A DNA stretch of 64,000 bases from Advenella incenata (GTDB lineage: Bacteria > Pseudomonadota > Gammaproteobacteria > Burkholderiales > Burkholderiaceae_B), in assembly GCF_004217095.1 (NCBI RefSeq), contig NZ_SHKO01000004.1, forward strand, positions 62,001-126,000, given 5' to 3'. The notes beneath the pieces were generated by a model. The model did no database searches. It saw nothing but the letters and a program-made list of their open reading frames with translations, and was not told where the DNA came from. Every line of letters starts with the position of its first letter. Positions within the stretch are counted from its first letter, which is position 1. Positions 21,491 through 52,318 of the stretch are shown here, piece after piece. A program made the translations under genes and the position numbers.

Positions 21491-21510
21491 TACTGTATAA
21501 ATTTACAGTG
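21491..21510 (+). promoter_or_regulatory. LexA (SOS) box upstream of DnaQ/GIY-YIG gene
   Basis: TACTGTATAAATTTACAGTG matches the E. coli-type LexA consensus CTGT-N8-ACAG exactly (CTGT 21493-21496, ACAG 21505-21508) with an AT-rich core. It ends 13 bp before the ATG at 21524, where repressor would block transcription. Betaproteobacterial LexA is known to use this E. coli-like motif. Confidence 0.85.
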
Positions 21511-51635: not shown

Positions 51636-51933
51636 ACATGTGGCCAAGGCGTTCATGCTGCCGCATCCAGGGACCATGGCTTTTCGGGCCCAGGGAGGCA
51701 CCTCTCGGTAAAGCGGTACTCGTCTAAAGAGGGCATGTCTGTTTGGCAACCGTGGTGGCCGCAAGTGATATGGATCAGTTGATTGGCAGCGCCACAGGTT
51801 TTGCGCGGGCAGAGTAGGGACGAGGGGACTTTTAATCTTCTGATGTAAAAGAAGAAAATATTTTTGGGGGTGTGATATCGAAGATGGAATACAACACAGG
51901 GGTGTAACGGGCTGAAATTGCGCTTGCAAAATA

Positions 51934-51953
51934 TACTGTATGGATATACAGTA
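51934..51953 (+). promoter_or_regulatory. LexA (SOS) box overlapping a promoter
   Basis: TACTGTATGGATATACAGTA contains CTGT-N8-ACAG (51936-51951) and has 8-bp perfect arms (ATACTGTA/TACAGTAT, 51933-51954). It fits the E. coli LexA consensus almost base for base. It lies between and over -35 TTGCAA (51924-51929) and -10 TACAGT (51947-51952), which are 17 bp apart, so LexA would occlude RNA polymerase. The downstream gene is the 70-residue membrane protein at 52106. Confidence 0.85.
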
Positions 51954-51980
51954 TGACTTATCGCAATGCATAGTCGCGAT

Positions 51981-52080
51981 ATAACTAGATTAGGGTCCTA
52001 GTTATCGCCTGCCCGCCGTTGAATGTGGTTCCAGTTTGGTGTTTTCCAGCATTCAGATTGTCATTCGGCCCGGGCGGGCA
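51981..52080 (+). promoter_or_regulatory. Structured leader of SOS-box gene
   Basis: Between the promoter and ATG 52106 lies a leader of about 145 nt with two pairing segments. ATAACTAG (51981-51988) pairs with CTAGTTAT (51998-52005). TGCCCGCC (52010-52017) pairs with GGCGGGCA (52073-52080). The second stem closes 13 nt before the GGAG (52095-52098) and could control ribosome access. Both arms are perfect 8-bp complements. Confidence 0.55.
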
Positions 52081-52105
52081 CCTCTTAACTCTTGGAGAAT
52101 TCATC

Positions 52106-52318
52106 ATGACAACCCAAATTCGCAAGCCCGGTGCCCCTTCTGCTTCAACTATATCAGCCTGCCGTCAGTTCGACCAGTCCTTTGCTACGCTTTATCGTAA
52201 AAAAAGCAGCAAAATACAGCGCAGCAGTCATGTGCTGGCCGATATTTGCATGGTGGCCGCTTGGTTTGCATTAATTCCGGTTATGAATCTTTTGGGTACG
52301 GCAGCCGGTCTGGCTTAA
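52106..52318 (+). CDS. SOS-controlled 70-residue membrane protein, unknown
   Basis: A 70-residue protein I do not recognise. The first 45 residues are polar and basic (MTTQIRKPGAPSASTISACR..., LYRKKSSKIQRSSH). The C-terminus has one hydrophobic span of about 22 residues (VLADICMVAAWFALIPVMNLL). The expected topology is N-in, single span. GGAG (52095-52098) is 7 nt before ATG 52106. The only promoter seen upstream is covered by a LexA box, so expression should rise on DNA damage. By size and control it recalls SOS-induced toxins (TisB) or division inhibitors (SidA), but there is no sequence match. Confidence 0.7.
   Translation: MTTQIRKPGAPSASTISACRQFDQSFATLYRKKSSKIQRSSHVLADICMVAAWFALIPVMNLLGTAAGLA

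Follow-up and report, generated by a model that had tools for sequence, protein, structure and literature searches.

A small membrane protein gene, apparently under LexA control, in most genera of the bacterial family of Advenella, with a folded leader RNA in a few of them

What does a bacterium gain from a 70-residue membrane protein placed behind a LexA box? The question is raised by a locus in the 64,000-nucleotide stretch of DNA that was analysed here as a whole and is referred to as the window. Its host is an Advenella genome, and the 70-aa protein shares 97% identity with its counterpart in Advenella sp. FME57 and 84% with the A. kashmirensis W13003 and Advenella sp. S44 proteins. The original prediction had read the locus as an SOS-controlled gene with a folded, inhibitory leader. 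The observation itself holds and is stronger than was claimed, and its interpretation is partly supported. The features of the locus, in window coordinates, are the following.

51924..51929, plus strand: -35 hexamer TTGCAA, read directly; 4/6 to consensus, 17-bp spacer
51934..51953, no strand assigned: LexA (SOS) box TACTGTATGGATATACAGTA, conserved at orthologues
51947..51952, plus strand: -10 hexamer TACAGT within the LexA box, read directly; 4/6 to consensus
51959..51981, plus strand: hairpin H0, where the mRNA is expected to begin (putative start site), from folding and covariation
51968-51974, plus strand: invariant H0 loop GCATAGT, from aligned rows
51981..52005, plus strand: hairpin H1 (ATAACTAG/CTAGTTAT), from folding, with an exact stem
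51991-51996, plus strand: invariant H1 loop TAGGGT, from aligned rows
52007..52080, plus strand: hairpin H2 with a G+C-rich outer stem, from folding, with an exact 8-bp stem
52094..52097, plus strand: Shine-Dalgarno GGAG, 8 nt before the ATG, predicted to be mostly paired with CUCU just upstream
52106..52318, plus strand: open reading frame (ORF) of 70 aa, putative SOS-controlled small membrane protein (predicted N-in, C-terminal anchor)
52232..52303, plus strand: predicted transmembrane segment, about residues 43-66, with the motif D-x6-W-x3-IP, from hydropathy and family alignment

LexA boxes follow the palindrome consensus TACTGTATATATATACAGTA, and TACTGTATGGATATACAGTA matches this palindrome at 18 of 20 positions with a perfect CTGT-N8-ACAG core. 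The near-perfect box had been predicted to sit over a 17-bp-spaced promoter, and it does overlie the -10 region and the spacer of one; TTGCAA and TACAGT each agree with consensus at only 4/6 positions, so this promoter lies below the threshold of a 9-of-12 hexamer scan and is not listed there. At the loci of genus g43 (genus labels are arbitrary numbers), TTGCAA occurs at the same distance from the LexA box as in the window. Perfect LexA cores number two in the 64-kb window against 0.62 expected, and 11 of 100 shuffles reach two. A perfect core alone is not remarkable in a single window, and the weight rests on its conservation. In the whole genome, the pattern ACTGTN8ACAGT occurs at nine sites, compared with five for the reversed pattern. 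Six of the nine belong to lexA, imuA, a Cho-like nuclease gene that also lies in the window, the present gene and two umuDC-like operons (the operons judged by eye from translations, ImuA by a model over its cut-off); at the other three no SOS gene is evident.

The ORF is a real gene, because it is under purifying selection in Advenella, with dN/dS of 0.02-0.18 in all 15 pairs among six sequences; the synonymous bias expected of a conserved ORF is thus present. Identity to five other Advenella loci is 86-97% in the box region and 90-99% in the leader, against 42-66% in the 200-nt flanks. A single-sequence search matched six Advenella genomes (its own included) at 84-100% and many genera weakly. 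A family profile (A1) built from 18 members was searched against 268 genomes of the bacterial family and an even, order-wide sample of 399 genomes. At E 0.001 it matches 201 of the 268 family genomes and 34 of the 43 genera, twice each in G228, G240 and G258; the remaining 67 family genomes have no profile match. The order-wide sample yielded eight convincing matches (the window's own genome included), all within the family of Advenella. Genome G636, outside the family, appeared at E 0.0042; its locus (L042) failed E 0.001 in a repeat and was taken as chance. A mobile or phage origin is not supported, as phage records gave no match and plasmids one weak partial match with one relative as the query. 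As far as sampled, the gene is chromosomal and specific to this bacterial family, which is the restriction that had been proposed. A literature search, judged on titles and the beginnings of abstracts, found no paper on it.

The gene adjoins a peroxiredoxin gene in the window; among 129 fetched loci, which include some duplicates and many stretches that are too short, rplS is found in 95 and peroxiredoxin in 55. Position was also used to spot members below the threshold, judged by eye, in g39, g13 (L185) and possibly g6 (L187). The g39 gene is very diverged and points away from rplS, and in G221 the diverged, turned-away gene has nonetheless kept its LexA box. In g39 and g6 (L190:2106-2686, L181, L184, L187), the gene region faces away from rplS, so that the boxes lie between the two and could also touch rplS transcription. 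In g22, g25, g31 and g37, ten genomes with lexA have neither the gene nor a box before rplS, and the tiny genomes of g21 and G108 show no match to the gene and no lexA match. Two g27 genomes (L178, L183) retain the box upstream of rplS; the ORF that follows, of about 55 codons and without a membrane helix, is perhaps decaying or perhaps encodes a tail-only product.

How widely the box accompanies the gene was read from 134 member-bearing genomes, one locus each, picked from the listed matches to span genera; a box was scored when a perfect core with at least 13/20 agreement lay in the 600 nt preceding the last 35 codons. In 28 genera, 99 of 103 genomes carry such a box and 67 carry two or more, compared with 0.1% when each upstream stretch was shuffled 20 times. 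The exceptions are G064 and three g5 genomes, the latter with 7/8-core boxes. Seven further genera (g2, g7, g8, g9, g26, g38, g41) have a box in 1 of 31 genomes; the split between 28 and seven genera was drawn after the counts were seen, and the overall figure is 100 of 134. Left out of this count were G001 (the contig ends upstream of the gene), G236 (no match in the fetched stretch), the second copies in G228 and G240, and G121, G219, G222, G223 and G225; among these, G121 and G222 have a box and G223 has a box-like site that departs from the core at one letter. The conservation of the box at orthologues supports LexA control, and the gene is apparently part of the SOS response, from which we infer that LexA binds here and that damage induces the gene.

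In the seven box-poor genera, all nine lexA promoters that were read, from six of the genera, carry a LexA box. Here the membrane helix is kept (e.g., L016, L031, L071) and the open frame is often longer, as measured between stop codons, a measure that high G+C inflates. The promoter may lie farther upstream than the scanned stretch. Because 30 of the 31 genomes keep the gene without a box, the job of the protein seems not to be tied to SOS everywhere. Where boxes are repeated, neighbours are mostly spaced by 18 or 31-33 bp (7/8-core boxes also counted). At L019, L023, L121, L122, L127 and L128, up to three boxes or box-like sites form an overlapping head-to-tail series with an 18-bp period and shared ends.

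The protein of the window has one hydrophobic segment, with a Kyte-Doolittle maximum of 1.91 from residue 42. Family features were collected from 75 distinct members with a box, 7/8-core boxes included, the start codons being picked by rule (that of L028, at least, looks miscalled). The motif D-x6-[WF]-x3-[IV]P is present in all 75, the last 20 positions are free of charged residues in all 75, and 74 have an N-terminal part of net positive charge; with automatic start choice, lengths range from 44 to 115 aa. WPF occurs in the tail of 34 of the 75. From the hydrophobic maximum and the motif and charge pattern of these members, a tail anchor with its N-terminus inside is predicted, that is, a basic N-terminal part followed by a single C-terminal membrane helix. 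The 70-residue protein with one predicted span, a ribosome-binding site (GGAG) and no recognised family has been confirmed as ORF 52106-52318: in Pfam no model scores over its cut-off (best E 0.078, chance-like), and NCBIfam, PHROGs, PADLOC and PDB gave no match. The SulA model (PF03846) does not match the protein in the Pfam scan and finds nothing in the window's own genome.

The leader spans about 147 nt between the putative transcription start and the ATG of the ORF. Its two announced 8-bp stems are both exact (51981-51988/51998-52005 and 52010-52017/52073-52080), and a third hairpin, H0, is found in addition (stem 51959-51964/51976-51981). The leader folds more stably than shuffled sequences (z -2.27; 1 of 200 as stable). 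It is kept in four further Advenella genomes (L160-L163), in which the protein has diverged, and the sequence of H2 varies between groups while a stem is present in each (L160-L163, L211-L213; by eye or folded). A covariance model of H0-H1 from seven Advenella rows, run on the 268 genomes with filters that lose weak matches, matches once each in all ten Advenella genomes and in three of the seven g39 genomes (E 0.0012 or better); the element is convincing in these 13 of 268 genomes and nowhere else. Ten extra matches in eight genomes (E 0.04-0.41) were taken as chance, and the two that were opened (L214, L220) have no box. In g39, H0-H1 follows the box (with one core letter changed in G223), and in G221 and G223 a diverged member comes after it; the ORF downstream in G222 (L211) is not confirmed as a member.

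Covariation supports these folds. Across nine aligned rows, double changes are seen at two pairs of H0 (A-U/G-C; C-G/U-A/U-G) and at two of H1 (C-G/U-A; U-A/C-G), with pairing kept in 9/9, and the loops GCAUAGU and UAGGGU are unchanged in all nine. These counts come from a hand-set alignment that leans towards structure and holds few independent events; it was chosen since MAFFT misaligned the second hairpin and one H1 side between groups. In row L213 one letter is counted twice, which affects the outermost H1 pair only. The g43 leader is of its own type, with two hairpins; among 18 distinct sequences picked by a shared loop motif, double changes occur at 6 of 17 pairs and 97.7% of cells pair. 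Its double-change counts are reached by 0 of 500 shuffles, and the second hairpin holds five of the six changed pairs. The H1 loop of this leader, UUCYAGGUC, is similar to UUAGGGUC, and a common origin of the two is a guess. The leader is a conserved RNA in Advenella and part of g39, with a separate covarying leader in g43; against Rfam 15 it matches only below the gathering score.

A folded leader is not a general feature of the gene family. Across the 75 distinct promoters, with automatic starts, the distance from the last box to the ATG runs from 6 to 190 nt, being below 50 nt in 25 and below 100 nt in 51. Joint conservation of box, leader and ORF had been proposed as a check; box and ORF go together in 99 of 103 genomes of 28 genera (1 of 31 in the seven others), and the leader is confined to few genera. 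An inhibitory role had also been claimed for the leader, of which the structure is supported. The Shine-Dalgarno is predicted to be more paired than free in 9 of 9 folded leaders (P unpaired 0.03-0.45), and this modelled pairing is a hint of damped translation. A leader peptide was rejected. The 11-codon frame at 51966-52001 ends in GP-stop, an ending reminiscent of stalling peptides; its ATG is AGG in G048, and later codons differ in L160-L163.

Our tentative reading, for which the case falls somewhat short of even, is that the gene encodes an SOS-induced, tail-anchored membrane protein that inhibits division or envelope function, most likely by pausing division or septal synthesis during DNA repair. 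In the undamaged cell, LexA would cover the -10 region and the spacer and keep the gene off; many genera would use two or three boxes in tandem for this. Upon damage, LexA would be cleaved and a short mRNA made; in Advenella and a few relatives its 5' end would form two or three hairpins that make it more stable or adjust how it is translated. The protein would insert into the inner membrane through its single C-terminal helix, leaving the basic N-terminal tail on the cytoplasmic side. There it would most likely act on a membrane partner and so hold up division or septal synthesis for as long as DNA repair goes on. The protein would then fill the role held in E. coli by SulA. SulA is a cytoplasmic FtsZ inhibitor; its physiological role is possibly shared here, and the two proteins are unrelated. 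Over the Pfam cut-off, SulA is found in 1 of the 268 family genomes, and at E 0.001 in 3 of 268, with the E. coli control detected; ImuA shows weak, sub-threshold SulA-like similarity. This near-absence favours division inhibition and, as an argument for such a role, is only suggestive. The sole genome with SulA over cut-off, G214 (g37; L177), has no such gene before rplS, which is a single case.

Division inhibition is also favoured because damage-induced inhibitors of similar build are known. SidA of Caulobacter is a 29-aa, SOS/LexA-induced, single-span inner-membrane division inhibitor, and DidA, of 71 aa and one span, is damage-induced independently of SOS (PMC4211646). SosA of Staphylococcus is a small SOS-induced membrane division inhibitor acting via an extracellular C-terminal domain (PMC6851548), and YneA of Bacillus is reported to be another (PMC13396833). 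The protein described here, known from its sequence, shares very small size and a single span with SidA and DidA, and the small membrane format and SOS-type control (here predicted) with YneA and SosA. Unlike SidA and DidA, however, it has its helix at the C-terminus with almost nothing behind it, and it ends at the helix where SosA continues into its acting domain. The parallel drawn with TisB and SidA holds for architecture, and the library scans showed no likeness beyond that.

Ranking second to the division inhibitor, and unlikely in our view, is a depolarising peptide like TisB or DinQ, whose helix would lower the proton motive force and bring about a tolerant state while the folded leader, perhaps with an antisense RNA, holds translation low until mRNA accumulates. 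The LexA box, small size, single hydrophobic helix and structured leader are all as expected of such a peptide, as is the predicted pairing of the Shine-Dalgarno in all nine folded leaders. Precedents exist: TisB, of 29 aa, is LexA-controlled, with a regulatory 5' UTR, a sequestered ribosome-binding site and an adjoining antitoxin RNA gene (PMC4147584), and DinQ of the E. coli DinQ-AgrB system is a LexA-controlled hydrophobic peptide (PMC3567139). With both systems the present locus shares a LexA-box promoter and a hydrophobic helix, and with tisB, in some genera, a candidate regulatory leader. However, the gene is retained in 34 genera under purifying selection, with polar or kinking positions (D, P) of the helix that do not vary, phage and plasmid records gave nothing beyond the one weak partial plasmid match obtained with one relative as query, and in 51 of 75 promoters the last box stands less than 100 nt from the ATG. 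Unlike TisB-IstR, the members have 44-115 aa (75 members) and a basic tail, and the long leader is found in a minority. The antisense RNA that had been suggested was not found. Because the flanks are only 42-66% identical among Advenella, no conserved antitoxin RNA would adjoin the gene within 200 nt, and the minus strand of the leader has no terminator-like site; one site lies inside the ORF (52237-52222), in a number no higher than in shuffles. An antisense RNA may lie within the leader or ORF or act in trans. TisB is an analogy only, because 25 of 75 promoters have less than 50 nt from box to ATG and no antitoxin was found.

Given less credit again, and improbable, is a damage-induced membrane anchor or adaptor that inhibits nothing, its variable cytoplasmic tail (often with KWPFP) tethering a repair, nucleoid or protease factor. 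The WPF of 34 of the 75 distinct members and the very different tail lengths (44-115 aa for the whole proteins) would suit such a role, and the often longer frames of the box-less genera (stop to stop and G+C-inflated) look as if the tail were the business end. Conservation sits in the helix, however, and not in the tail, which argues for a specific partner within the membrane. That the leader RNA is itself the functional product, as a small RNA or peptide-sensing leader with a secondary ORF, is highly improbable: H0-H1 is indeed 98-100% identical to the window in five other Advenella loci, where the coding region is 83-95% identical, but it occurs in 13 of 268 genomes against 201 for an ORF strongly purified by selection, and the 11-codon frame within it is not conserved (AGG for ATG in G048). 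Returning to the division inhibitor, the boxless genera, the genera without the gene and the helix-less ORF of g27 would each agree better with a dispensable modulator than with a strict checkpoint.

A bolder reading, which we hold to be doubtful, is a family-wide membrane SOS checkpoint without a known relative. In three genera its mRNA would carry a new RNA switch, built of paired hairpins whose stems covary and whose loops are fixed. The switch would respond to a second signal (a protein, the state of the ribosome or a small RNA), so that the effector is made only when damage and this signal coincide. The fixed loops of the proposed switch would be GCAUAGU and UAGGGU in two genera and UUCYAGGUC in the third.

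Overall, a gene apparently of the SOS response, retained in most genera of a large family, has no family model over cut-off in the scanned libraries, and the canonical SOS division inhibitor is nearly missing from that family. Its leader is a candidate RNA element with covariation and no Rfam match over the gathering score. If the protein is the missing checkpoint effector, it would explain the post-damage pause in these bacteria and add an unrelated solution to a recurrent problem. The genera with the protein and without LexA boxes would provide a natural experiment on SOS rewiring.

Finally, the second perfect core of the window belongs to a further LexA box upstream of a long ORF.

21491-21510: second LexA box TACTGTATAAATTTACAGTG, upstream of an ORF from about 21524

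With nuclease models that stay below their cut-offs, including a Cho model at E 7e-68, the 470-aa product of this ORF reads as a DnaQ-like exonuclease domain fused to a Cho/UvrC-like GIY-YIG nuclease.
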